Shown piece after piece: positions 1,296-12,295 of a stretch of DNA of 26,797 bases (the stretch's first letter is position 1; each line of letters begins with the position of its first letter). Origin of the DNA: a virus. The notes beneath the pieces were generated by a model, which had not been told where the DNA came from, did not search any database, and saw only the letters and a program-made list of their open reading frames with translations. Location: positions 1 to 26,797 of the IMG/VR virus record IMGVR_UViG_3300021478_000302; one strand, given 5' to 3'. Made by a program: the position numbers and the translations under genes.

Positions 1296-1460
1296 TCACC
1301 CGTCAGTTCCACCGATCATATCGGCGAACCTTTCCGCGCGTCGCCAAGCCTCATCTCGCCGCTTCTCGACTGCTGCATCGGTCTGGACTGGATGCGCCTT
1401 GGCGTAGGCAATCAGGCTCGCAATCGTTGGCGTGTCGGCTTCTTGCTTGTCATTTGACAT
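1296..1460 (-). CDS. hypothetical 54-aa protein
   Basis: The minus-strand ATG at 1460 has AAGGAG eight bases upstream, one of the best ribosome sites in the window. The longer upstream extension of this frame runs through the neighbouring gene and was rejected. The protein is charged and probably largely helical, with one amphipathic helix (ASLIAYAKAHP) and a second rich in Arg, Glu and Ala (AAVEKRRDEAWRRAERFADM). No family is recognised. It lies 22 bases downstream of another 54-aa minus-strand gene, so the two form a small operon running against the late genes. Its 3' end converges on the NusG-like gene. Confidence 0.65.
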   Translation of the reverse strand: MSNDKQEADTPTIASLIAYAKAHPVQTDAAVEKRRDEAWRRAERFADMIGGTDG

Positions 1461-1482
1461 ATCGGCCACTCCTTCAATCGGA

Positions 1483-1647
1483 TTACCGCTGCGTCTCTGC
1501 CAGCGTCTTGTGGCACATCTCGATGACCTCTTTCGGCAAGACTGCGCCGACCATCTCATTCGGCCGGCAGGCTCCGGTGGTGTAATCAACTTGGTCGAGC
1601 AGGGTCAGTAGGGATGTTCGTAGGCGATCGGCGGCGTCATCTGGCAT
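1483..1647 (-). CDS. hypothetical 54-aa protein
   Basis: The start at 1647 is chosen because TTGGAG lies nine bases upstream. ATG 1656 (adding MIP) would place that ribosome site directly against the start codon, and longer forms add a Gly/Arg-rich stretch. The protein begins MPDDAADRLRTSLLTLLDQV and ends EVIEMCHKTLAETQR, with predicted helices at both ends and a central turn-rich segment (DYTTGACRPNEM). No family is recognised. It is the first gene of a two-gene minus-strand unit. The 213 bases between it and the integrase should hold its promoter. Confidence 0.6.
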   Translation of the reverse strand: MPDDAADRLRTSLLTLLDQVDYTTGACRPNEMVGAVLPKEVIEMCHKTLAETQR

Positions 1648-1860
1648 TGGGATCATCTCCAAACGGTCGTTTACGCCCATCCATCCAGTTCTGCCGGCGC
1701 GTGTCACTCGCCCTGCGTGCGTCGGCAGGGCGGCGGTCTCGCTTGGACGGCCCTCGGATCGGCTCCTCCAGGCGACCCGTCCGCCGCCGGATTTGCTTAC
1801 CGCGCCTTATGGCGGGGTGCCCGAATCAGCGTCCATACCGTCCAGATAAGGCCGATTATA
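1648..1860. other. non-coding divergent region between the minus-strand pair and the integrase
   Basis: This 213-base stretch separates two divergently read units. It must hold the promoter for the minus pair and perhaps one for the integrase. The 10-mer CCGTCCAGAT occurs at 1838-1847 and again at 1898-1907, 60 bases apart, the second copy inside the integrase N-terminal codons. An A+T-rich patch (GATTATATTG) sits at 1854-1863. A frame continuous with the integrase is open back to 1717, but its product is Gly/Pro/Ala-rich and does not look like recombinase sequence. No convincing -35/-10 pair was found on either strand. Confidence 0.35.
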
Positions 1861-2742
1861 TTGCATTCGCAGGCTCTACTTTCCGCCTCTATTCCGTCCG
1901 TCCAGATCGCCCCCCAGGCGACATCAGACGCCGACATGGTGACGCTGTGGCTCCGCAACTATCGCTCGGCCAACACCCGCACCGCCTATGCGTCTGACAT
2001 TCAGGCGTTCATGCGCTTCGTGGTCAAACCTTTGCGAGTCGTCACGCTTGGCGACGTTCAGGACTTCGGCGCGAGCCTGGTGCACATGGCACCGGCTACC
2101 GTTGGTCGACGTCTCTCCGCCGTTAAATCCCTGATCGCGATGGCTCACCGGCTCGGCTATCTGGCGTTCGACGTTGGGGCGCCGGTGCAGCTACCCGCGA
2201 TCAAGGACACGCTGGCAGAGCGAATCCTGACCGAATGGGAAACCCAGCGTCTACTCTCGATGGAGCGCAACCCGCGATACGCCGCGCTGCTGCGCACGAT
2301 CTACGGAGCCGGCCTTCGTATCAGCGAGGCGTGTGGACTCTGCTGGCGCGACCTGATCCCACGCGACGACGGCGGCCAGATGACCGTGTTCGGCAAGGGC
2401 GGGAAGACGCGCATAATTCTACTTCCGGCGCAGCTTTGGGACCGAATTTCGGCGCTTCGTGGCCGGTTTGGGCCGGATGACGCCGTGTTTCGCCCAAGAA
2501 CGGGCGGCCACTTCGACCCGTCGATGGTGCACCGGATCGTCAAGGCGGCGGCGCGGCGTGCCAAATTGTCGCCCGCTGTTTCAGCGCATTACTTGCGGCA
2601 CTCGCACTGTTCGCATGCACTCGATCGCGGTGCTCCCGTGCACGTCGTGCAAACGACGCTCGGCCATGCGTCCTTGACCACGACTACAAGATACAGCCAT
2701 GCACGCCCTGGCGATTCAAGTGCGCGCTATTTGAATGCGTAA
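1861..2742 (+). CDS. int: tyrosine-family site-specific integrase
   Basis: Catalyses phage integration and excision by strand exchange through a phosphotyrosine intermediate. With the TTG start at 1861 (AAGG nine bases upstream), an N-terminal SAM-like core-binding domain (VTLWLRNYRSANTRTAY) covers about residues 25-115 and the catalytic domain follows. All catalytic residues are visible: R153 in GLRISEA, K182 in GKGGKTR, H243 and R246 in HYLRHS, H269 in GHAS, and Y278 in TRYSHA. At about 290 residues it is XerC/D-sized and lacks a separate arm-binding domain. The start is uncertain: ATG 1936 gives a 268-aa form that cuts into the first helix. It marks the phage as temperate. No excisionase is seen nearby. 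Confidence 0.9.
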   Translation: MHSQALLSASIPSVQIAPQATSDADMVTLWLRNYRSANTRTAYASDIQAFMRFVVKPLRVVTLGDVQDFGASLVHMAPATVGRRLSAVKSLIAMAHRLGYLAFDVGAPVQLPAIKDTLAERILTEWETQRLLSMERNPRYAALLRTIYGAGLRISEACGLCWRDLIPRDDGGQMTVFGKGGKTRIILLPAQLWDRISALRGRFGPDDAVFRPRTGGHFDPSMVHRIVKAAARRAKLSPAVSAHYLRHSHCSHALDRGAPVHVVQTTLGHASLTTTTRYSHARPGDSSARYLNA

Positions 2743-2884
2743 GTACTAAGTACGCCGCGCGTGTCAAATCCCGCACGCTACGATCGCACATTGCGCGTCG
2801 CCTGATCGGGCGTCGGGGCGCGCTCCGGCGAATACTTGGCCAGTCGCGCCCGCCCGCACGCGCGCGAGGCCGGTTTCCGGGCCG
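2743..2884. other. non-coding gap after the integrase; candidate attP region
   Basis: These 142 bases have no supported gene. Immediately after the integrase stop is a direct repeat AAGTAC-T-AAGTAC (2741-2753). Further on is a GC-rich bulged hairpin with outer arms GCGCG (2793-2797) and CGCGC (2819-2823) and inner arms CGCC (2799-2802) and GGCG (2809-2812), without a T tract. Position next to the integrase makes it a candidate attachment site or a terminator for the two converging genes. Neither is proven. Confidence 0.3.
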
Positions 2885-3103
2885 TTATTGCGACCGTCCG
2901 CCTAGCCGTTCGATCACATAATCCAGGAACTCGCACCCGTCTGGCGCACCGGCGACATACGCCGCGAGGCGTTGCGGATCGAATCGGACACCTTCGACCA
3001 GTTGCAGCAGTTGGGCGTCGCGCCACTCCTGCGAATGCTCGGCGACGGGGACCGCCATTTCCGGTACATCGGCCGCGTCGAACAGCATTGGCTGAACGTG
3101 CAT
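2885..3103 (-). CDS. hypothetical 72-aa protein
   Basis: The ATG at 3103 on the minus strand is preceded by AAGGGAGAGG, with the GGAG core about eight bases away. The upstream extension to 3163 has no better site. The protein is acidic, beginning MHVQPMLFDAADVPEM and ending in helices (RLAAYVAG, EFLDYVIERLGG). No family is recognised. It stands alone, running opposite to the integrase upstream and the methyltransferase downstream, with only 38 bases between its start and the methyltransferase ATG. The two divergent starts must share that gap for their ribosome sites. Confidence 0.65.
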   Translation of the reverse strand: MHVQPMLFDAADVPEMAVPVAEHSQEWRDAQLLQLVEGVRFDPQRLAAYVAGAPDGCEFLDYVIERLGGRSQ

Positions 3104-3141
3104 CCCGCCTCTCCCTTCCGCCGCACCGGAGTCTAGCGCGC

Positions 3142-4389
3142 ATGTCCGCAGCCGCAACCGCAACGCGACGGGTCAAGACTGGCGGGCGTGTTCGTGGCGT
3201 TCCCAATAAGCCGAAAGCCGCGCCGTCCGGTGCGCAGACGCCGTACGGTGACTCACTCGTCAAGCTGCGCCCCTACAAACTGACGCGCGTTGCCGACCTG
3301 GTGCCCGATCCGCGCAACCCGATGCAGCACGCGCCGGATCAGGTGAACCTGCTCGAAAAGCTCGTGCGCGAGTTCAAATGGACCGACCCGGTTCTGATGG
3401 ACGAGAACCGCGGCATTCTGGCTGGGCATGGCCGCGTCATGGCCGCGAAGCAGATGGGGCTGATCGAGGTGCCGACCCTGACGATTGCCGGCCTGAGCGA
3501 TGCGCAGAAGCTGGCGTACATCATGGCGGACAACGAGTCGGCGCGTCGTTCGACGTGGGACCAGGATCTGCTGCGGCTCGGCTTCCTGGAGCTTGGCGAG
3601 CTCGGCGGCATTGACATGGAGATGACAGGGTTCGCGTTGCCCGAGATCGGCCGCCTCCTTGGCCCCGACGCGGGCAACACCGACCCGGACGATGCGCCGG
3701 CTGTGCAGGCGGTCGCGGTGTCGCGGTTGGGCGATGTGTGGATCATGGGGCGGCATCGCCTGTACGCGGCCGACTGCCGGGACGTGCTGCCGACGCTGGC
3801 GGGCGTGGACGCATGCGTGACCGATCCGCCGTATGGCATTGGCGACCTTATGCACGGCGGGACATGGGGTGCAGCAAAGAAGTACGCCGACTTTCGCGCA
3901 TGGGACGTAGCACCGTCAGATGAGACGATGGCCGCGCTGTTCGCCTTTCCGAAGGCGATTGTATGGGGCGGCAACTACTTTCGAGTGCCTTCATCGCGAT
4001 GCTGGTTGGTCTGGGAAAAGACGAACTCGATCGAAACCGGAGCAGACTGCGAGTTGGCATGGACGAATTTCGATCGCCCTGCCAAGTCGTTTAGCTTCGG
4101 GCATGGCGTGCATACGACCGGGCATCCAACACAAAAGCCCGTGCAGTTGGTTTCCTGGTGCCTGGAATTCACACCGGACGCGAAGACGATCCTAGATCCC
4201 TACGCCGGCAGTGGCACGACCATCATTGCGTGCGAGCAGACCGGCCGCGCGTGCGTAGCGATTGAGGTGGCGCCGCAGTACACCGACGTGGCAATCCGGC
4301 GCTGGCAATCGTTCTCCGGCGGCACTGCCATCCACGAACCCACCGGCCGACCCTTCGCCGCCATCGCCGCCGAGCGCGCGCCCGCATGA
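3142..4389 (+). CDS. ParB-like / DNA adenine-N6 methyltransferase fusion
   Basis: 415 residues; the start ATG 3142 has CGGAG ten bases upstream. The upstream open stretch to 2836 covers the opposing 72-aa gene and was rejected. Residues about 45-150 are a ParB/Srx-type domain (DPRNP, then a helix, then ILAGHGRVMAAKQMG and AYIMADNESA). The C-terminal part is an S-adenosylmethionine methyltransferase with catalytic motif IV DPPYGIG at 228-234, HPTQKP near 328, and motif I DPYAGSGTT at 352-360. Motif IV before motif I is the beta-class order, and DPPY is typical of adenine-N6 enzymes. Such fusions are common in phages, where they are thought to mark phage DNA against host restriction. The recognition site is unknown. 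Confidence 0.88.
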   Translation: MSAAATATRRVKTGGRVRGVPNKPKAAPSGAQTPYGDSLVKLRPYKLTRVADLVPDPRNPMQHAPDQVNLLEKLVREFKWTDPVLMDENRGILAGHGRVMAAKQMGLIEVPTLTIAGLSDAQKLAYIMADNESARRSTWDQDLLRLGFLELGELGGIDMEMTGFALPEIGRLLGPDAGNTDPDDAPAVQAVAVSRLGDVWIMGRHRLYAADCRDVLPTLAGVDACVTDPPYGIGDLMHGGTWGAAKKYADFRAWDVAPSDETMAALFAFPKAIVWGGNYFRVPSSRCWLVWEKTNSIETGADCELAWTNFDRPAKSFSFGHGVHTTGHPTQKPVQLVSWCLEFTPDAKTILDPYAGSGTTIIACEQTGRACVAIEVAPQYTDVAIRRWQSFSGGTAIHEPTGRPFAAIAAERAPA

Positions 4390-4673
4390 AACGTGCCGAG
4401 TTCCGATGTTTAGGCTGTGGCCACGAATGGTCTGCGCCTTCAGGCCCCGTTGAATGTCCCCGGTGCCTGCATCTCTATGTCAAATGGACGAACTACGAGG
4501 CGCACGCCATCGCTGCCGAGCGCGCTAACGAGGCAGCGCACCCGTTGTTGACAACGGCTTACCCCGTCGCTCACAACAAGTACCGGGAACACGGCGTGAA
4601 CGCGGCCCCCGCTACCGGGATTCTACCGTCCGCTCCCGCTGCCACGCCAGATAAGCCCGATCGTCACCCGTGA
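4386..4673 (+). CDS. zinc-ribbon protein (95 aa)
   Basis: The ATG overlaps the methyltransferase stop (ATGA), so translation is probably coupled. The N-terminus is a clean zinc ribbon: C8-x2-C11 (CLGCGHEW) and C24-x2-C27 (CPRCLHLYVKW). An Ala-rich helix and a Pro/Ala-rich tail follow. Similar small ribbon proteins sit upstream of phage terminase genes, with no firm function; nucleic-acid binding is inferred from the fold. The last 62 bases are overlapped by the 3' end of the convergent minus-strand gene ending at 4612, so the disordered tail may be secondary to that overlap. Confidence 0.75.
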   Translation: MKRAEFRCLGCGHEWSAPSGPVECPRCLHLYVKWTNYEAHAIAAERANEAAHPLLTTAYPVAHNKYREHGVNAAPATGILPSAPAATPDKPDRHP

Positions 4674-4812
4674 GAGTGGCCCGGCTGACAAACGGCGCGC
4701 CGGTCTCGATCGCACCCGTCTCGCGGTGAAAATCGCATAGGCCGGTGAAGTGATTGCACACGTCGCCGCACATGCGGCAGAGCACGTTGGGGCCGTTCTC
4801 GATAAGCCGCAT
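4612..4812 (-). CDS. zinc-knuckle-like small protein (66 aa)
   Basis: The minus-strand ATG at 4812 has GGGGAGG five bases upstream, an excellent ribosome site. The longer frame back to 5019 was rejected. Residues C12, C15, C19, C26 and H29 (LCRMCGDVCNHFTGLCDFH) form a compact metal-binding cluster, followed by a polar stretch and a helix ending YLAWQRERTVESR. The function is unknown. Its 3' end overlaps the convergent zinc-ribbon gene by 62 bases. Its start lies only 25 bases from the divergent plus gene at 4838. Confidence 0.7.
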   Translation of the reverse strand: MRLIENGPNVLCRMCGDVCNHFTGLCDFHRETGAIETGAPFVSRATLTGDDRAYLAWQRERTVESR

Positions 4813-4837
4813 GTCAACCTCCCCAGGATCATCCGCG

Positions 4838-5227
4838 ATGCCTCTAGACTCGACCGGAACCACGCACCGCGCAACCCGCGCCATCAGCGCCGCGGACACG
4901 TGCGCCCTGACGTACCACCTCGCCGCAGTCCAAAAGCGTACTGCCACGTCCGACAAGGACCGCGCCACGCGCGAGTGCGTGCGGCTCGGCGTGCTGTTCG
5001 ACCATGAGAAGCACCCCAAGCCGGCCGGTTACGAGGGCGTGGTGTATCGCGGCGCGGCCGTGACGATCTCGCTGAAAGTCGGCCAGCCCGGCGATGCGCT
5101 GGACGTGGAGTCGTTCCTCGAATCGCTTGCCGAGTACCTGACGCCCGGCGTCATCAAGCGCCTGGTCGCGCGGCACCGGAGCGCGACGGCGGCTCCGCAC
5201 ACGTTCACGAGTTCACTGGTCGCGTAG
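4838..5227 (+). CDS. hypothetical phage protein (129 aa)
   Basis: ATG 4838 follows an AGGA nine bases upstream; this ribosome site lies next to that of the divergent gene ending at 4612. Upstream in-frame starts would overlap that gene's coding region. The protein has an N-terminal helical part (ALTYHLAAVQKRTATSDKDR), a central beta-like stretch (YEGVVYRGAAVTISLKVGQP) and a C-terminal helical part (ESFLESLAEYLTPGVIKRLV). It reads as a folded mixed alpha/beta protein. No family is recognised with confidence. It lies two genes before the small terminase, a typical place for small recombination or packaging accessory genes. Confidence 0.65.
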   Translation: MPLDSTGTTHRATRAISAADTCALTYHLAAVQKRTATSDKDRATRECVRLGVLFDHEKHPKPAGYEGVVYRGAAVTISLKVGQPGDALDVESFLESLAEYLTPGVIKRLVARHRSATAAPHTFTSSLVA

Positions 5228-5455
5228 CGCCGCATCGATCATAGCTTTCCAGGCGTCGATAGCTATGGTTTCCCTGGTTTCGTCTTGCAGGTAACGGACG
5301 TTACGCATTCCTTTTGCAACCTTCGTAACCATCGCCTCGGTCGGATCGCGCATCGCGGCGATGGCGGCACGGGCCGTCTTCTCGCATTGCTCACTATTTC
5401 CACAACCATGCTCCATCAGCAGGTCGCAGATACGATCCACCATTTCCGACGCCAT
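5213..5455 (-). CDS. hypothetical helical phage protein (80 aa)
   Basis: ATG 5455 on the minus strand is chosen because GGAGG lies five bases upstream; ATG 5467 lacks a site. The sequence is all helical, with a pair of Cys in the middle (HGCGNSEQCEKTA), then RDPTEAMV and a C-terminal AIDAWKAMIDAAL. The combination of a DPTEAM segment with a WKAMIDAAL ending is common in small phage and prophage proteins of alpha- and betaproteobacteria that have no known function (recalled from the family pattern, not searched). It overlaps the end of the preceding plus gene by 15 bases and starts 32 bases before the small terminase. Confidence 0.75.
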   Translation of the reverse strand: MASEMVDRICDLLMEHGCGNSEQCEKTARAAIAAMRDPTEAMVTKVAKGMRNVRYLQDETRETIAIDAWKAMIDAALRDQ

Positions 5456-5487
5456 CCGCCCCTCCATCGCTCAACCCAGGATACCGC

Positions 5488-6027
5488 ATGCCGGCCCGCA
5501 AGCCGAAACCCCGCCGCCGCGCCGCACGCAAGCCGCCCGCACCGCCGCCGCCCGTTGCCGCGCCACCGAAGATGGGCCAGCCGCCGTTCGTGCCGACCGA
5601 CCAGGATCGCCAGCTCGTGCGCGTGATGGTCTCCGGCGGCATCGAGGCATGGGCCATCTGCGAATGCCTCAGCCGCAAGATCAGCAAAGGCACGCTGCGC
5701 AAGCACTTCAGGCGCGAGATTGCCACCGGTGCCGGCGAAGCCAACGCGGCGGTGATCGCCTCGCTGCACAAGATGGCGGTCGGCCAGCGCGCACGTCCGG
5801 CGCAGGTCATCGGCGGCGTGCAGTACCACGCGCAATCCGAGATCAAACCGGAAGTCCGCGCGGCGCAATGGTGGACCCAGGCGCGCATGGGGTGGAAAGA
5901 GCCGCCGACGCTGATCGGCAACGCCGACCCAGATACGCCGTTCGCCGTGTCGTTCCGCTGGGCGGACGCGACGCCGCCGGCAACGGAGCCTGATGCACCA
6001 GAAGACGCGCCAGCAACCGACCCGTGA
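5488..6027 (+). CDS. terS: small terminase subunit-like DNA-binding protein
   Basis: 179 residues; ATG 5488 has AGGA six bases upstream. The N-terminal 30 residues are Arg/Lys/Pro-rich and disordered. Residues about 36-80 form a helix-turn-helix (DQDRQLVRVMVSGGIEAWAI, then a turn and SKGTLRKHFRREI), followed by a helix (ANAAVIASLHKMA) and AAQWWTQARMGWKEPP. This matches the small DNA-binding subunits found directly before large terminases, which select the packaging site and stimulate the ATPase. The acidic C-terminus overlaps the start of the large subunit by 35 bases, implying coupled, stoichiometric synthesis. The pac or cos site was not identified. Confidence 0.8.
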   Translation: MPARKPKPRRRAARKPPAPPPPVAAPPKMGQPPFVPTDQDRQLVRVMVSGGIEAWAICECLSRKISKGTLRKHFRREIATGAGEANAAVIASLHKMAVGQRARPAQVIGGVQYHAQSEIKPEVRAAQWWTQARMGWKEPPTLIGNADPDTPFAVSFRWADATPPATEPDAPEDAPATDP

Positions 6028-7318
6028 GATCGTCCTGCCGTTCGCGCCGCGTTTCTGGCAGCGGGCGCTGATCGATGACCAGGCACTGCGCATCGTCGCT
6101 GTTGTGCACCGTCGAGCCGGCAAGTCGCTCGGTCTGCTTTGGAAAGGCTTTAAGCGCGCACTGACTGAGCCGAAGCCGTTGCCGCGTGCCGTGCATATCC
6201 TCCCGACCGCAGTCATGTGGAAACGAACCGGGCTATGGGATGCAACCATGCTGGCATCGATGGCAATTCCCGGCGCCTCGATTGCGAAGGCCGACATGGC
6301 AATCCGCTTTCCGAACGGCGGGATATTTCAGTGCGGCGGCGCGGACAATCCGGACTCGTGGCGCGGCGGATATGCGGACATCGTGACAGTGGACGAATAT
6401 GATGACACGCCGCCGAGCATGGTCCCGCTGGTGATCGAACCGATGCTGGCGGATCGCGAGGGCACGCTGGTTCGCTCAGGCACGCCAAAGGGGCGCGGAC
6501 TGCTGCAAGCCGCATTCGACCGCGCCGGCAAGTCATCCGGTTATAGCCGCTATCTGCTCGATTACACGCGGACCAATGCGCTCAGTGCGAAGGCGATCAA
6601 GCGATTGCGCGAGGAAATGACGGAGGAAGAATTCGCCCAGGAGTTGGAGTGCAGCTTCGACTCGCCAAACTCCGGCTCGTATTACGGCAAATGGATGGAC
6701 GCGGCGCAGCGCGAGGGCCGCATTACCCGCGTGCTCTACGACCCGGCACTGCCTGTGTTCACATCGTGGGACCTCGGCATTGCAGACTATGGCGCGGTCT
6801 GGTCATTCCAAATTTCTCCCCGTGGCGAGTGGCGATGGCTGAAGTACTACCAGGATAACGGCGTCGGCCTGGACATCTACGCCAAGAACATCCTGGCCGA
6901 GCCCTACGTCTACAAGCGCCACATACTGCCGCACGACGTAGAAGTGCGCGAGTTGTCGCAACAAGGGCGCTCCCGCCGCCAATACCTGCTCGGCCTTGGC
7001 GTGCGGCCGATCCAGGTTGTTGCCGCGTCAAACCCGGCCGATCGCGTCGCGGCAATGCGAGCGATCCTACCGAAATCATACTTTGACGCGGAGGGCTGCG
7101 ACGTGGGTATCAAGATGCTGCGCGCATATCGCCGCCAATGGAACGAGAAGATGGGCGTATGGCGTGCCGAGCCCGTGCATGACGAGGCAAGCCACGGCGC
7201 GGACGCCGCTGGCACGGGTGCACAAGGTGCTACCGATCCGCAGGCCGAGAAGCCGAAAGCCGCCACGCCGCCACGCGAGCACAGCGAGCGCGGCGCGAAC
7301 GTATGGATGGGGGCGTGA
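5993..7318 (+). CDS. terL: terminase large subunit (ATPase/nuclease)
   Basis: Packaging motor, 441 residues. ATPase motifs are clear: Walker A HRRAGKS at 39-45, Walker B VTVDEYDD with catalytic Asp-Glu near 134-135, and coupling motif SGTPKGRG near 162. The nuclease domain starts with SWDLG near 259 and carries later acidic positions in HDVEV and HDEASHGADA (about 397). The last 40 residues are Ala/Pro-rich and probably flexible. The enzyme cuts concatemeric DNA and pumps it through the portal. The start overlaps terS, with GGAG just upstream. The stop overlaps the next ATG (TGATG). Confidence 0.93.
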   Translation: MHQKTRQQPTREIVLPFAPRFWQRALIDDQALRIVAVVHRRAGKSLGLLWKGFKRALTEPKPLPRAVHILPTAVMWKRTGLWDATMLASMAIPGASIAKADMAIRFPNGGIFQCGGADNPDSWRGGYADIVTVDEYDDTPPSMVPLVIEPMLADREGTLVRSGTPKGRGLLQAAFDRAGKSSGYSRYLLDYTRTNALSAKAIKRLREEMTEEEFAQELECSFDSPNSGSYYGKWMDAAQREGRITRVLYDPALPVFTSWDLGIADYGAVWSFQISPRGEWRWLKYYQDNGVGLDIYAKNILAEPYVYKRHILPHDVEVRELSQQGRSRRQYLLGLGVRPIQVVAASNPADRVAAMRAILPKSYFDAEGCDVGIKMLRAYRRQWNEKMGVWRAEPVHDEASHGADAAGTGAQGATDPQAEKPKAATPPREHSERGANVWMGA

Positions 7319-7656
7319 TGGCAACGCCGTTCAATTACCTAGGGCCACCGCCTCAGGCCGGTTTTATCGGCATGTTATCGCGGCTGCGTCCCGGACAGGC
7401 CAACGCCGATCCCTCAATGGTTGCGTCGCCGTATGCCAATGGCGGCGATGCGATGCCGAACGCTGACCTTGGAAACCTAAATCAGATGCCAGGGCAAGTT
7501 GTGAGCGGCTGGTTGCAGGCGGGTCTCGCTCCCGAGCATCTAGCAACATTGTGGCAAATCCCGGCGTGGCGCGACCACTTGATGCAGCAGTTCGGTAATC
7601 AGCAAGGTGCCAACCCTAACTGGCTTGCGGCAGGCACCGCACGGACGGGGACGTGA
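7318..7656 (+). CDS. hypothetical protein between terminase and portal (112 aa)
   Basis: The ATG overlaps the large-terminase stop (TGATG), and its own stop overlaps a further ATG at 7656, so it lies in a coupled chain. The protein is rich in Asn, Gln, Pro and Gly, with a C-terminal helical segment (VVSGWLQAGLAPEHLATLWQ and WRDHLMQQFG). No family is recognised. Small genes at this position in P22-like genomes are often poorly conserved, and some are minor virion components; that role here is only inferred from position. Confidence 0.65.
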   Translation: MATPFNYLGPPPQAGFIGMLSRLRPGQANADPSMVASPYANGGDAMPNADLGNLNQMPGQVVSGWLQAGLAPEHLATLWQIPAWRDHLMQQFGNQQGANPNWLAAGTARTGT

Positions 7657-7790
7657 TGGCGCAGACTATTACCGTGACGATCTCCATCCATCCGATAATG
7701 ATGGACGCACCGGGCTACTTCGACCCCCGATGGAAGGCGAAACCACTGCCGAGGCGCGTGCGGTTCGCGCGAGTGAGCAGGCGCGCCTAG
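7656..7790 (+). CDS. possible 44-aa small protein overlapping the portal start
   Basis: ATG 7656 overlaps the preceding stop (TGATG), and the frame runs to TAG at 7788-7790. The product begins MAQTITVTISIHPIMMDAPG and continues YFDPRWKAKPLPRR before a basic tail. It looks more protein-like (alternating beta strand, aromatic turn) than the portal frame read in the same bases, which encodes Arg/Asp-rich sequence before 7730. Its stop overlaps an in-frame portal GTG at 7790 (TAGTG). This is either a real coupling gene or a chance frame, and it bears on where the portal starts. Confidence 0.42.
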   Translation: MAQTITVTISIHPIMMDAPGYFDPRWKAKPLPRRVRFARVSRRA

Positions 7791-9979
7791 TGGCCCGAAC
7801 GCGCGTAAGAGCCGGCGACGCGGAGATACTTCGCGAGGCGAAAGCGCGATGGGAGCGTTGCCATACTTGGTACGCCACGGCCACCGCCAACGCCAAGGCC
7901 GACTCAAAATTCTCGGCCGGCGATCAGTACAACAACTGGCAATGGGACCAGACGGTGCAGAAGGCGCGCGGCGACCGGCCGTGTCTCACGCACAACAAGG
8001 TCCGCCAGCATAACCTGCAAATCATTAACGACGCACGCCAGCACAAGGCCCAGATAAAAGTCACGCCAACCGGCGGCCGGGCAACATACGAGGCGGCGCA
8101 AATCTTCTCCGGTATCATCCGGCGTATCGAATACCAGTCGAAGGCGATTGACGCATACAGCACGGCGTTTTTTCATCAAGTGGATGCCGGCTACGGCGTG
8201 ATCGGCGTCGAGACCGACTTTGCCGACGAAGAGTCGTTCGATCAGGAGATATACGTCCGCCGGAAGAACAAGCCGCGCACCATCTATTTTGACCCGGATG
8301 CCCGCGACTATGACAAGGCGGACGGGCGCTTCGCATTCGAGTTCAACGACACGCCGCGCGACCTGTACGAAGCCGAGAACGGCAAGTCTGACAGCCCAAT
8401 AAACACGTTCGACAATACCGACGACTGGAGCGACAAGGATCACGTCCGTGAGGCGAAATACTGGCGCCGGTCGAATGACAACGACACGCTGCACCTGATG
8501 ACGGACGGCTCGACCATACGCGAAAGCGACATGGCGGACGGCGAGCTGGAGGCGCGCAAGCCGGACATCGTGAAGTCGCGGGAAATATCGGCGCCGGAAG
8601 TCGAATGCTTTCATATTGTCGGCAACCGGATCGATAAGCGTCAGGCGTGGCTCGGGAAATATATTCCCCTTGTCCCGGTGATCGGCGAGGAGACGGTGAT
8701 CGACAACGTGATGGACCTGAAGGGCCATACCCGCGCGCTGATCGGTGCGCAGCAGATGTACAACTACTGGTCCTCGCAGGCGGTCGAACAGGTGGCGTTG
8801 CAGACTAAATCGCCATGGACCGCTTCGACGCGTGCCACCGAGGGGCACACGAACCAATGGGATAGCGCAAACACGGCATCGTGGTCTGTGCTATATTACA
8901 ATGATATCGACGATAACGGCCAGCCAATCGAGCGGCCCACTCGTGTTGATCCGCCCGTCATGGCGCAAGCATTCCTCCAGGGCATGAACATTGCCCGCGA
9001 GGACATGATGATGGTCTCCGGCCAGTATCAGGCCGAGATGGGCCAGCCGTCCAATGAACGCAGCGGCGTGGCAATCCAGCAGCGCCAGCGGCAGGGCGAT
9101 AACGCGACGTACCATTTCGTGGATAACCAGGCCAAGGCGATCCGGCAAGTTGGAAGAATTCTGCTCGATCTGATACCCAAGATTTACGATGTGGCACGTG
9201 TGACCAAGATCATGGCGGAGGACGGCAGCGATTCGGACGTGCATATCGTGCCAAACGCGCCGGATGCGCACCAGCATGTCGTGATGACGCCGAACGGTCC
9301 TCAGCCGGTAACACCGCAGCAGGCGGATGCGATCGACGCCGACCCGGACCAGCCGAACGCGCAGGTCATCTTCAACCCGACGGTTGGATCGTACGACGTT
9401 GAGGCGGATGTGGGGCCGCCGTTCGGCACGCAGCGGCAGGAAGCGGCCAACGCGTTCTCGCAAATCATGCAGCAGAACCCCGCCGCGTTTCAGGTGGTCG
9501 GCGACTTCTGGGCGCAGAATTCTGACTTTCCCGGCGCGGACGAGTTGGCAGAACGGCTCCGGCGCGGATTGCCGCCGCAGTACAAGGCCGGCGCGCCCGA
9601 TCCGGCGGTGCAGCAGCTCCAGCAGGCGATGCAGCAATCGCAGGCGCAGGCCCATGAGCTCCTGGGCAAAGCGGATGGGGAGATCGCGGCGCTGAAACAG
9701 CAACTCCAAACGGCGCAGCTCGCGGCGAAGGACAAGGGCGCGGGTAACGAGATCGCGGACTACCAGGCGGAAACCGAGCGGCTGAAGGCGGTTGCGGCGG
9801 CCGATCCGGTTGCGGCGCAGGTTATCATCCGGTCGCTGTTGTCGGGTATGCTCGGCATGCCGGCGCTTCCGGTGATGCAGGAACATTCGGCGGCCGACGC
9901 GGAACACGCCCAGGCCATTGCACCGCCGGAGCCAGCGGGAGCAAATGGTGCGGGCAACGGAGCGGAGGCTGGGCCATGA
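7730..9979 (+). CDS. P22-type portal protein
   Basis: Dodecameric portal through which DNA enters and leaves the head. ATG 7730 gives 749 residues, close to the 725 of P22 gp1; GTG 7790 would give 729. Family features: an N-terminal helix (EILREAKARWERC), RPCLTHNKVRQHNLQIINDA, IIRRIEYQSKAIDAY, a GYGVIGVETDF strand with SFDQEIYV, TIYFDPDARDYDKADGRFAF, and the crown-side region around GQYQAEMGQPSNERSGVAIQ. The C-terminal 150 residues contain a Gln/Ala coiled coil (VQQLQQAMQQSQAQAHELLG and on), like the barrel of P22 portal. The stop overlaps the next ATG (ATGA). No clear ribosome site precedes 7730, so the exact start is open. Confidence 0.9.
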   Translation: MEGETTAEARAVRASEQARLVARTRVRAGDAEILREAKARWERCHTWYATATANAKADSKFSAGDQYNNWQWDQTVQKARGDRPCLTHNKVRQHNLQIINDARQHKAQIKVTPTGGRATYEAAQIFSGIIRRIEYQSKAIDAYSTAFFHQVDAGYGVIGVETDFADEESFDQEIYVRRKNKPRTIYFDPDARDYDKADGRFAFEFNDTPRDLYEAENGKSDSPINTFDNTDDWSDKDHVREAKYWRRSNDNDTLHLMTDGSTIRESDMADGELEARKPDIVKSREISAPEVECFHIVGNRIDKRQAWLGKYIPLVPVIGEETVIDNVMDLKGHTRALIGAQQMYNYWSSQAVEQVALQTKSPWTASTRATEGHTNQWDSANTASWSVLYYNDIDDNGQPIERPTRVDPPVMAQAFLQGMNIAREDMMMVSGQYQAEMGQPSNERSGVAIQQRQRQGDNATYHFVDNQAKAIRQVGRILLDLIPKIYDVARVTKIMAEDGSDSDVHIVPNAPDAHQHVVMTPNGPQPVTPQQADAIDADPDQPNAQVIFNPTVGSYDVEADVGPPFGTQRQEAANAFSQIMQQNPAAFQVVGDFWAQNSDFPGADELAERLRRGLPPQYKAGAPDPAVQQLQQAMQQSQAQAHELLGKADGEIAALKQQLQTAQLAAKDKGAGNEIADYQAETERLKAVAAADPVAAQVIIRSLLSGMLGMPALPVMQEHSAADAEHAQAIAPPEPAGANGAGNGAEAGP

Positions 9980-10146
9980 GTGAGGATAACACCGAGGGCA
10001 ACCGTTTGGAGTGCCTGCGTATGGCGACCCTCACATTTCGGGACGCCGGTGCAGAGGAGATCTTAACAGCGGCTCGGGCGTTCTACGCCTTCGTTTCCGG
10101 GACCGACTGCGAGGCACCGAACGACCCGGCCGCGCCGCAGCAGTAG
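9976..10146 (+). CDS. small phage protein (56 aa)
   Basis: The ATG overlaps the portal stop (ATGA). The product is MSEDNTEGNRLECLRMATLT followed by a helix (DAGAEEILTAARAFYAFVSG) and a Pro/Ala tail. The pattern of Asn-Arg-Leu-Glu-Cys-Leu at the start, Glu-Glu-Ile-aa-aa-Ala-Arg in the middle and Phe-Val-Ser-Gly at the end recurs in small proteins of tailed phages of alphaproteobacteria (recalled, not searched). Function is unknown. It is too short for many gene finders, but the coupling and protein-like sequence support it. Confidence 0.72.
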   Translation: MSEDNTEGNRLECLRMATLTFRDAGAEEILTAARAFYAFVSGTDCEAPNDPAAPQQ

Positions 10147-10155
10147 GAGTCGCCG

Positions 10156-10335
10156 ATGGACCTGATTATCATCCTCCTCGTGGTGCTAATACTGTTCGGC
10201 GGCGGTTACGGCTATCGCACCGGCGCGGTGAGCTTCGGCGGCGGCAACCTGCTCGGTATCGTGCTGATCGTACTGGTCGTGCTGTTGCTGTTCGGCGGCC
10301 TCGCCGGCCCGCGCCTCGGTCTGTATCGGTGGTGA
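10156..10335 (+). CDS. two-transmembrane small protein, DUF3309-like (59 aa)
   Basis: ATG 10156 has AGGAG six bases upstream. The 59-residue product has two strongly hydrophobic segments, residues 2-14 (DLIIILLVVLILF) and 32-47 (LLGIVLIVLVVLLLFG), joined by a Gly-rich loop GGGYGYRTGAVSFGGG. This layout resembles DUF3309, small membrane proteins widespread in proteobacteria. In a phage it could be a holin-like or superinfection-related peptide, but it sits in the head gene cluster and no endolysin is adjacent, so neither is claimed. Its stop overlaps the ATG of the next gene. Confidence 0.7.
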   Translation: MDLIIILLVVLILFGGGYGYRTGAVSFGGGNLLGIVLIVLVVLLLFGGLAGPRLGLYRW

Positions 10336-10679
10336 TGATGGACGAGAAGCAACGTCCGATGCCTGCAACCGCTTCAGAATTCTTCGCACTTATGACGGCA
10401 TACAACGACTTGAGTGCACGTCTGACCTCGATCGAGCAAGGCCTGGCGCGCGCGGATGCCGCCGCCACAATCCAAAGCGAGACGATGGAACCGACGCACC
10501 GGCTTGTCTTCTCGCTTATGACGGCATTCAACGACTGGAATGCACGCCTGACCGCAATCGAGCAACGTCTGGCACGCGATGACGCCGCCGGCGCGATACA
10601 GCGCGGGACGATGCACCGATCCGACCCGGATTTCGACAGTGGCGCATTCCGCGTCATCGAAGGAGACGACCCCAAATGA
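10335..10679 (+). CDS. coiled-coil protein built from two tandem copies (114 aa)
   Basis: The ATG at 10335 overlaps the previous stop (TGATG); ATG 10338 follows at once. The protein contains two 42-residue-spaced copies of one module: LMTAYNDLSARLTSIEQGLA and LMTAFNDWNARLTAIEQRLA, each followed by an Ala-rich continuation ending in a Thr-Met. Heptad-like Leu/Ile positions suggest a short helical hairpin or coiled coil. The acidic C-terminus (FRVIEGDDPK) overlaps the next ATG (ATGA). There is no family match. Position between portal and scaffold suggests a head-assembly or accessory role, by inference only. Confidence 0.68.
   Translation: MMDEKQRPMPATASEFFALMTAYNDLSARLTSIEQGLARADAAATIQSETMEPTHRLVFSLMTAFNDWNARLTAIEQRLARDDAAGAIQRGTMHRSDPDFDSGAFRVIEGDDPK
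10389..10613 (+). repeat. diverged tandem duplication inside the 10335-10679 gene
   Basis: Bases 10389-10487 and 10515-10613 align without gaps at a 126-base offset (42 codons). Both begin CTTATGACGGCAT and both end in ACGATG. Differences are spread along the copies, so the duplication is not recent. The reading frame is kept throughout. Confidence 0.85.
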
Positions 10680-11005
10680 GCACCACGAAAGACGCACCCG
10701 ACGAGCCCGCCGACGCCGCACCCGTCGACACCACGCACGACCTGACCACGGTGGAGGGCAACCGCGCTGCGGTCGCCGACGCGGTAGGCATCCGGGCTTC
10801 CGTGGCCGCGATGTGCGCCACCGTGGTGCGCCTGGTGCACCTGAGCCACACGACCGGCGACCGCGCGCACGCGCAGGCGCTGCACGACGACATGCGCGAC
10901 AACCCCGACGCCTGGGCCGACGCGGTGGAAGCCACGCCGGAGAAGGCGGAGCGCAGGTCGGCGGCCGATCGCGTCGGCGGCGGGGCGCAGAGGAGCCAGC
11001 GTTAA
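10676..11005 (+). CDS. hypothetical acidic protein (109 aa)
   Basis: The ATG overlaps the previous stop (ATGA). The first 25 residues are Asp/Ala/Pro-rich and probably disordered. A helical core follows (VEGNRAAVADAVGIRASVAA and ATVVRLVHLSHTTGDRAHAQ), then DNPDAWADAVEATPEKAERR and a Gly/Arg tail. No family is recognised. It is the last gene before the scaffold on this strand. Its TAA (11003-11005) shares the palindrome TTAA with the stop of the convergent minus-strand gene. Confidence 0.62.
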   Translation: MSTTKDAPDEPADAAPVDTTHDLTTVEGNRAAVADAVGIRASVAAMCATVVRLVHLSHTTGDRAHAQALHDDMRDNPDAWADAVEATPEKAERRSAADRVGGGAQRSQR

Positions 11006-11217
11006 CGTTGTATCGTCACGCGCCACGTCCGGCCGCCCGTTTGCCGCCAGTAAATGCCGGGCGGAACGGCCATCGTATTCCACGTCAGGAATGACGCATT
11101 CGCATTGGCGTACACCACCTGCGACTGGCGTAGCTGCTGATCGGTCGCATTCTGTTGTGCCGCCGGGCTGACGCAAACGGGCGCACCGAACAACGCGCCG
11201 AATAGACCGTCAATCAT
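11002..11217 (-). CDS. hypothetical small protein with hydrophobic N-terminus (71 aa)
   Basis: The minus-strand ATG at 11217 has GGAGG five bases upstream, which picks it over longer forms of the frame. The protein starts MIDGLFGALFGAPVCVSPAA, short for a membrane segment but possibly membrane-associated or a weak secretion signal, then a Gln/Asn-rich region. It ends in a beta-like stretch (VPPGIYWRQTGGRTWRVTIQ). No family is recognised. It sits alone between two plus-strand head genes, with its stop nested in the neighbour's stop and its start 30 bases before the scaffold gene. Confidence 0.6.
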   Translation of the reverse strand: MIDGLFGALFGAPVCVSPAAQQNATDQQLRQSQVVYANANASFLTWNTMAVPPGIYWRQTGGRTWRVTIQR

Positions 11218-11247
11218 CACGACCTCCAACCACCACATGAGCATACC

Positions 11248-11994
11248 ATGAGCGAGACCGAAACCGCCCCGCCGGGCGGCGCGCAAGCGGAACCGGCTGC
11301 GGCTACCGTCGATCCGAACGCGCCCGGAACTGAAGGCGCTGCGGCTACCGAGACCGAGACCAAAGCTGAGCCTACCGAGGCCGAAGTCAAGCAAAGCCGG
11401 ATCGAGCGGCGCATTGCCGCGATGTCCGCGCGTCTATCCGCCGGCGAGCAGGAACGCGCCCGGCTTGCCGGCGAGAACGAGCGGCTGCGCTCCGGCGCAA
11501 CCCATGAACCGGACCCCAACCGCGCGCTCACACAGGACGACATAAAGCGTGCGCGCGCGGAAGGCGAACAACAGGGCGCGGTCAGGGCGCGCGTGGAGCG
11601 GTTCCACGAGCAGGGGCGGGCGTCATACCCGGACTGGACGGAACGCTGCCAGTCGCTCATGGCGATGGGCGCCGATAGCGGACTGGCCGAGTTGCTGGTC
11701 GAGACACCGGACGGCGCCAAGGTCGCGGCTGCGCTTGCTGACGATCCCGAGGCGCTGGAGGCGATTGCGGGGCTTCGCTCGGAACGCTCGCGGGCGATTG
11801 CGCTGGGCAAATTCGCGGCGGAAATGCGGGACAAGCCGGCGCCGGCCGCGCGGCGTGTCTCGAACGCACCGGCGCCGATCCGGCAGTTAAACGGCGCGAG
11901 CGCGCGGGCGGAGTTCAATGAATTCACCGCGACGGCCGAGCAACTGACCGCATACTACGCGAAGCAGCTCCGAGAGAAGCGCGGACTTAACTAG
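11248..11994 (+). CDS. head scaffold protein
   Basis: 248 residues between portal and coat genes, where P22-like phages carry the scaffold (gp8). It is highly charged and helical: a disordered acidic N-terminus (about 1-45), helices with coiled-coil character (RIERRIAAMSARLSAGEQER), a middle helical part and a basic C-terminal end (LTAYYAKQLREKRGLN), comparable to the basic helix-turn-helix by which P22 scaffold binds coat protein. Scaffolds diverge quickly, so the call rests on position, size and composition. The ribosome site is weak. The stop shares a CTAG palindrome with the convergent gene at 11991. Confidence 0.78.
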   Translation: MSETETAPPGGAQAEPAAATVDPNAPGTEGAAATETETKAEPTEAEVKQSRIERRIAAMSARLSAGEQERARLAGENERLRSGATHEPDPNRALTQDDIKRARAEGEQQGAVRARVERFHEQGRASYPDWTERCQSLMAMGADSGLAELLVETPDGAKVAAALADDPEALEAIAGLRSERSRAIALGKFAAEMRDKPAPAARRVSNAPAPIRQLNGASARAEFNEFTATAEQLTAYYAKQLREKRGLN

Positions 11995-12143
11995 TCGCGC
12001 CACGTTAGCTCGAAGGCGACCCACCACAAACCCACGCCCTCCCACCACGGCTCTCCATAGAAAATAGCCAAACCTACGGAGATACAAACCCCAACAAGAA
12101 ACAACGCAGGTCCGGGGGTGCTATTATCATCGGACTCTACCAT
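11991..12143 (-). CDS. single-pass membrane peptide (50 aa)
   Basis: The minus-strand ATG at 12143 has GGAGG five bases upstream. The product begins with a polar stretch (MVESDDNSTPG), then a clear hydrophobic helix of about 18 residues (PALFLVGVCISVGLAIFY) and a Trp-rich tail (GEPWWEGVGLWWVAFELTW). It is likely an inner-membrane protein. Its base composition is visibly more A/T-rich than the neighbours. It is antisense to the late genes and lies directly between scaffold and coat. Small membrane peptides of phages can act in superinfection exclusion, lysis control or host interference; which, if any, applies here is unknown. Confidence 0.68.
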   Translation of the reverse strand: MVESDDNSTPGPALFLVGVCISVGLAIFYGEPWWEGVGLWWVAFELTWRD

Positions 12144-12221
12144 AAGTGCCTCCAAACCGCCGCGCCCGGTATATGGCGCTGTGTCGTGCCCATCCTGCCG
12201 CTGCGGCTACCCGAATTCCGC

Positions 12222-12278
12222 GACAGAGACCAGCCCCGAGAACGCCATGCGCGTGAGGGGCGCCCCCGTATCTCTGTC
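12222..12278 (+). promoter_or_regulatory. structured leader upstream of the coat protein gene
   Basis: A perfect 8-base inverted repeat, GACAGAGA (12222-12229) and TCTCTGTC (12271-12278), encloses a second one, GCCCC (12233-12237) and GGGGC (12257-12261), with a possible inner CGC/GCG. The structure ends just before the coat ribosome site GAAAGGG (12281-12287). It could stabilise the coat mRNA or keep the ribosome site open. The rest of the 152-base gap (12144-12295) shows no gene and no convincing promoter. Confidence 0.45.
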
Positions 12279-12295
12279 ACGAAAGGGCCGCACCC

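Follow-up and report, generated by a model that had tools for sequence, protein, structure and literature searches.

Seven short counter-oriented reading frames as probable accessory genes of an uncultivated phage

Are short open reading frames (ORFs) that run against the operons of a phage genes in their own right, antisense regulators or products of chance? The question is raised by the IMG/VR virus record IMGVR_UViG_3300021478_000302, whose 26,797 bases were analyzed as a whole (the window) and are possibly a fragment. The main genes of the window lie on the plus strand and encode a NusG-like antiterminator, a tyrosine integrase, a ParB-methyltransferase fusion, the small and large terminase, the portal, the scaffold and the major capsid protein (PHROG 283), which we take to be of the P22 type. 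An initial annotation had placed seven genes of 50-80 residues on the minus strand, and all seven were recovered at exactly those positions. They are called m1 (1296-1460), m2 (1483-1647), m3 (2885-3103), m4 (4612-4812), m5 (5213-5455), m6 (11002-11217) and m7 (11991-12143). Based on the observed anatomy of these ORFs, their non-random occurrence, the protein families of m2 and m5 and the presence or absence of such genes in relatives, we read them, with a probability of roughly three in four, as accessory genes, small and counter-oriented, of an uncultivated phage whose capsid is presumably of the P22 type, real in at least five of the seven cases and placed one per gap, apart from the two-gene unit m2-m1.

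Anatomy and placement of the minus-strand ORFs

Each of the seven ORFs begins with ATG, which is preceded at a spacing of 4-9 nt by a Shine-Dalgarno (SD) sequence. The m1 ORF (54 residues, SD AAGGAG) is placed 22 nt downstream of m2 (54 residues, GGAG), and the two look like one operon; no other two of the seven are adjacent. The m3 product is acidic and has 72 residues (GGAG), m4 has 66 residues including four cysteines (GGAGGT) and m5 has 80 residues (GGAGG). Further downstream, m6 (71 residues, GGAGGT) lies between the gene at 10676-11005 and the scaffold gene, and m7 (50 residues, GGAGG) between the scaffold gene and the capsid leader. The m7 product contains one hydrophobic segment (19-residue mean hydropathy 2.09), and with m4 and m7 the set includes the Cys-containing protein and the membrane-type peptide that had been annotated.

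Five of the ORFs had been described as starting 25-40 bases from a divergent plus-strand start. The count is four, namely m3 (38 nt from the methyltransferase start), m4 (25 nt from the start at 4838), m6 (30 nt from the scaffold start) and m5, whose 32 nt assume a small terminase start at 5488, where homology does not support the first ~25 residues. The distance is 69 or 288 nt for m2 and 152 nt for m7.

The ORFs occupy gaps between the plus-strand genes and overlap their neighbors tail to tail only, by 62 nt (m4), 15 nt (m5) and 4 nt each (m6 and m7), which does not fit an antisense placement to gene bodies. At two of the convergent junctions a palindromic stop is shared, TTAA between the gene 10676-11005 and m6 and CTAG between the scaffold gene and m7. 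All seven were said to run against the late genes; the minus orientation is correct, but m1-m4 adjoin the NusG-like gene, the integrase and the methyltransferase, and no late structural gene is among these neighbors.

The SD sites had been annotated as often better than those of the structural genes, and a comparison with 26 plus genes gives the seven ORFs the higher scores (Mann-Whitney p=0.00025). A strong SD on each minus gene is understandable, because a gene that faces away from the plus operons has no translational coupling and must initiate alone. In the relatives described below, 239 of the 538 core plus genes start at most 10 nt from the preceding stop and can therefore couple translation, an option that a single gene on the opposite strand lacks. 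Over all called genes the mean SD score is 1.43 on the minus and 0.92 on the plus strand, a comparison which is not independent because the gene maps were drawn with our own simple gene caller, which itself uses SD strength.

The window has six gaps of more than 100 nt between plus genes, each of which contains a minus-strand ORF that has both ATG and SD and is 45 codons or longer; a plus-strand ORF of the same kind occurs in none of them (0/6). When the plus genes were held fixed, dinucleotide shuffles gave per-gap chances of 0.35, 0.13, 0.05, 0.09, 0.06 and 0.08, with a product of ~1e-6. Such a minus ORF is present in 11 of 151 (7%) of the relatives' gaps of 160-420 nt, and several of these 11 are real genes. 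According to a codon model, for which 518 long genes served as the training set, the own frame is the best of six for all seven ORFs, with a margin of only 0.1 for m3. Their pooled GC content at codon positions 1, 2 and 3 (0.64/0.46/0.68) shows the coding pattern, and their mean GC content is lower than that of the window (0.595 vs. 0.643, P=0.0014), individually clear for m5 and m7 only.

Protein families and related phages

The m2 ORF encodes a member of a small conserved phage protein family (LLDQVDYTTGACRPNE-VGAVLP-EVI). Its relatives, 70% and 68% identical, lie in the unrelated phage contigs L119 and L120, in both cases opposite to tail or terminase genes. Compared with L119, codon positions 1, 2 and 3 are identical to 70, 86 and 28%, the codon changes comprise 21 synonymous and 13 nonsynonymous ones, and pN is 0.19 at saturated pS. 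From these alignments m2 is a proven protein family under strong purifying selection. Its predicted structure model was too weak for a structure search.

The second proven family is that of m5 (ARAAIAAMRDPTEAM...AMIDAAL), for which 17 phage relatives were found at ~30-47% identity, having the motif ARAAIAAMR-x-T and a C-terminal DAAL in common. The AlphaFold model of m5 (mean pLDDT 90.7, pTM 0.73) is all helical and nearest to uncharacterized phage proteins (BFVD A0A6J5R3B9 and A0A6J5P7D4), and no solved structure was found to resemble it. A weak match of m5 to PHROG 37244 (E=0.0026) was the only result besides which scans of all seven ORFs with Pfam, PHROGs, NCBIfam and PADLOC gave nothing above cut-off. 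None of the seven proteins gave a match when compared by tblastn with 50,697 phage records. In L014/L015, m4 had a tblastn match (E 0.006-0.03) that was dismissed as due to chance, since it covers 36 residues and lacks the Cys pattern of m4.

The large terminase (TerL) has less than 60% identity to any of the 50,697 phage records, and matches at 56-77% identity were found in 20 IMG/VR contigs; a search with the capsid protein led to 80 loci. In the GTDB genomes no related TerL was detected by a pattern scan, and a search for prophage relatives found no member of the m2 family there. The m5 ORF was found in none of 20 relative phage genomes.

A comparison with related phages had been proposed as a check, and its outcome agrees with the expectation. 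The order and strand of the terminase, portal, scaffold, capsid and downstream genes are kept across the gene maps of the relatives, and counter-oriented genes are present or absent between these collinear flanks as units. Between scaffold and capsid such a gene is found in 3 of 64 loci (the window, L013 and L079) and between portal and scaffold in 4 of 50 (the window, L003, L072 and L076); the interval from NusG to terminase contains more of them (the window, L002, L003, L012, L020 and L027). In L002 the position of m4 is taken by a different 66-residue Cys-containing gene, which has the same SD and lies 14 nt from the homologous plus start.

In the portal-scaffold interval, a further minus gene has orthologues on the minus strand of six relatives (L003, L052, L053, L072, L074 and L078), five of which were aligned. 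The gene lies upstream of the scaffold gene, with the coordinates 17629-17826 in L003, 4736-4924 in L072, 815-1006 in L052, 8460-8651 in L053 and 6400-6591 in L078. The five aligned genes share the same SD (AAGGA, 7 nt) and overlap the plus gene upstream of them by 31-41 nt, tail to tail; dN/dS is about 0.3-0.5 among them and about 0.3-0.6 over the six, and a TGCTAT element is conserved ~70 nt upstream, with a promoter score at the 90th-99th percentile. Small genes of this counter-orientation therefore do exist between head genes and are able to persist in this phage group. The collinear flanks, the occurrence as units, the two proven families and the lower GC content uphold the annotated interpretation of the seven as accessory genes (morons).

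Expression and alternative explanations

As an accessory gene, each ORF would have entered as a unit between two collinear genes of the plus strand. It is packed tightly against them, in a tail-to-tail arrangement on one side and, in four cases, a nearly head-to-head one on the other. Transcription probably starts from an own promoter near the head-to-head gap, apart from the plus-strand operons and from late-gene control, and the products may be dispensable modulators of the host or the phage.

Several results weigh against this interpretation. The full promoter scores of the seven ORFs are not above background, and no terminator-like site was detected at the junctions by a consensus scan that may miss other types, so that an own terminator is seen at none of them. 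The coding scores are modest, with small margins for m1, m3 and m7 and values of about zero for m1 and m7. In addition, m1, m3, m4, m6 and m7 had no relatives in the scans made, of which the scan of viral contigs with m7 was limited to the relatives analyzed here. As genes, these five rest on their anatomy, m1 and m7 being the weakest. The independent expression that had been annotated is supported in part, by the strong own SDs, while the promoter-like sites in the window are weak and the junctions lack terminator-like sites. The motif TANNNT is located 22-26 nt upstream of three of the seven ORFs, m3 (TAGACT, 26 nt), m5 and m6 (TATGCT, 22 nt), compared to 8.7% for ATGs overall and a single case among the 26 plus genes. 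A sigma-70 promoter shared by all seven was considered and is not supported by the promoter scan.

The alternative that survives best is a chance origin of part of the set, with m1 and m7 as the likeliest cases, in a genome with 64% GC; we consider it possible at somewhat less than even odds. Long minus-strand ORFs are common in this genome, the shuffles give the first gap a probability of 0.35 of containing one, and the codon model gives m1 and m7 no coding signal of note. The true feature at m7 would then be a plus-strand promoter region before the capsid leader, where an extended -10-like sequence, TGCTATTAT, is found inside m7 (12119-12127, plus strand) at a chance expectation of 0.035 per leader. 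As a general capsid promoter this sequence was rejected, since it occurs in the window only and is missing at the same place in 66 other leaders, which also speaks against the chance origin of m7. Furthermore, m7 combines ATG, GGAGG and an exact CTAG stop overlap, and at the same junction L013 carries a counter-oriented gene likewise with GGAGG and a 4-nt stop overlap. For m1, the distance of 22 nt from m2 and the AAGGAG sequence argue against chance.

It is considerably less probable, and in our view unlikely, that the minus-strand transcripts themselves act as antisense regulators, the ORFs being secondary. They would start in or near the head-to-head gaps, continue without termination across the preceding plus gene and lower its expression, e.g., in the lysogen. 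The convergent junctions without terminator-like site would suit this mechanism, and the 4-nt stop overlaps of m6 and m7 leave no space for a terminator between the stops. However, m2 and m5 are selected as proteins and their relatives sit in unrelated phage contexts, gene bodies are avoided by the ORFs, and the late genes are kept in relatives that lack the minus genes. The annotated antisense regulation of late genes is not supported, because no ORF covers the ribosome site or the body of a plus gene and the overlaps are confined to 3′-ends; an antisense role could be exerted only via untranslated read-through RNA. We regard it as even less likely that unterminated minus transcripts form a coordinated antisense layer repressing the head genes, in which accessory and capsid expression would be mutually exclusive, as the minus start region overlaps the capsid leader DNA at 12143-12295. 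A single leftward early operon, later interrupted by insertions of plus genes, would account for the runs of minus genes in the NusG-to-terminase interval of L003, L012, L020 and L027, but as the source of the seven it is very improbable, considering that the plus-gene order around the gaps is kept in relatives without minus genes, that m6 and m7 lie between head genes which are adjacent in most relatives and that only m2 and m1 are neighbors.

The capsid region and comparison with known systems

Next to m7, the major capsid gene has an undescribed structured leader (12155-12295, plus strand), which is also found in ~60 relatives (e.g., L003 19309-19500, or the 200 nt before L059 9995). It comprises between one and three pseudoknot modules of the H type, often in tandem, whose stems covary, followed by a hairpin with a conserved AAGA/UGA internal loop and the SD. 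A conserved element at 12155-12185, ~140 nt upstream of the capsid start and 12 nt from the start codon of m7, recurs in relatives with 100% identity over 27-31 nt, although their capsid proteins are just ~61-81% identical, and L003 carries two copies of it. The element fits the H-type pseudoknot ACCG-CC-GCGCC-CGGT-ATAT-GGCGC, followed by TGTGTCGTGCC. A pseudoknot module is present 110-200 nt upstream of the capsid start in 58 of 68 leaders, compared to 11-15 after shuffling. In 14 ungapped modules, all pair cells are standard (126/126) and 19 double changes occur, compared to 5.5 in shuffles and 1 when slid; the whole-leader shuffle is the fairer control because the modules had been picked by pairing. 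A second pseudoknot alignment was set aside, since in some of its rows the first letter was arbitrary. The leader has no match in Rfam 15 at E<=1, and among the papers searched none on capsid leader pseudoknots in phages was found. As a subject of separate study it may be more deserving than the seven genes.

Mobile elements also occur at the capsid genes of some relatives. A GIY-YIG gene lies between scaffold and capsid in L079 (9118-9816, minus strand; Pfam PF01541, E=9e-9), and a GIY-YIG-like ORF was recognized by eye at the same place in L022 (1375-2208, plus strand). The two have opposite orientations, and the junction is a hot spot for mobile genes. A group I intron with an HNH-like ORF is located inside the capsid gene of L025 (1278-2037; Rfam RF00028, 64.7 bits), and the same contig region is found in L024 (~5790-6560). 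In L030-L034, L089, L090, L092 and L093 the capsid matches span ~1510-1534 nt for 396 residues, so an insertion of ~320 nt interrupts those capsid genes; the three scanned (L030, L031 and L089) gave no Rfam match for it. Away from the capsid region, a ParB-like domain and a DNA methyltransferase domain are combined in a single gene at 3142-4389 on the plus strand.

Short counter-oriented ORFs in a high-GC phage genome are easily taken for noise, and the analysis shows that gap occupancy, SD strength and purifying selection can tell them from chance. Small protein families without assigned function are added by it, i.e., m2, m5 and the minus gene shared by L003 and its relatives. The portal-scaffold-capsid junctions emerge, in this uncultivated phage group, as places where small genes, homing endonucleases and introns turn over around a capsid leader that is structured and unusual.

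Homing endonuclease genes and introns are known to be inserted near phage capsid genes, and in the relatives such elements occur at the scaffold-capsid junction, where m7 lies, or in the capsid gene; in contrast, no endonuclease is encoded by any of the seven, and Pfam, NCBIfam and PADLOC gave no match above cut-off for them. The m5 product resembles the small phage proteins with the ARAAIAAMRDPTEAM motif (PHROG 37244-like, including the two BFVD entries), with which it shares motifs, length and, as modeled, the helical fold, whereas the match to the family profile is weak and m5 stands alone, opposite to the terminase genes.

Finally, the closest parallel is with morons, which are single-gene acquisitions, often with their own promoter and terminator (PMC2147016), and with prophage accessory loci, for which an antisense position to lytic genes and an own promoter are a published mark, as in STMMW_20121 of prophage ST64B (PMC7067206). 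The seven ORFs are likewise small single genes opposite to lytic genes, inserted between collinear genes and present or absent in relatives. In contrast, their promoters are only putative, and they are called moron-like because terminators were not found at their junctions. Seven such genes within 11 kb, filling every gap, are unusual within this group, but they are not a new kind of thing.

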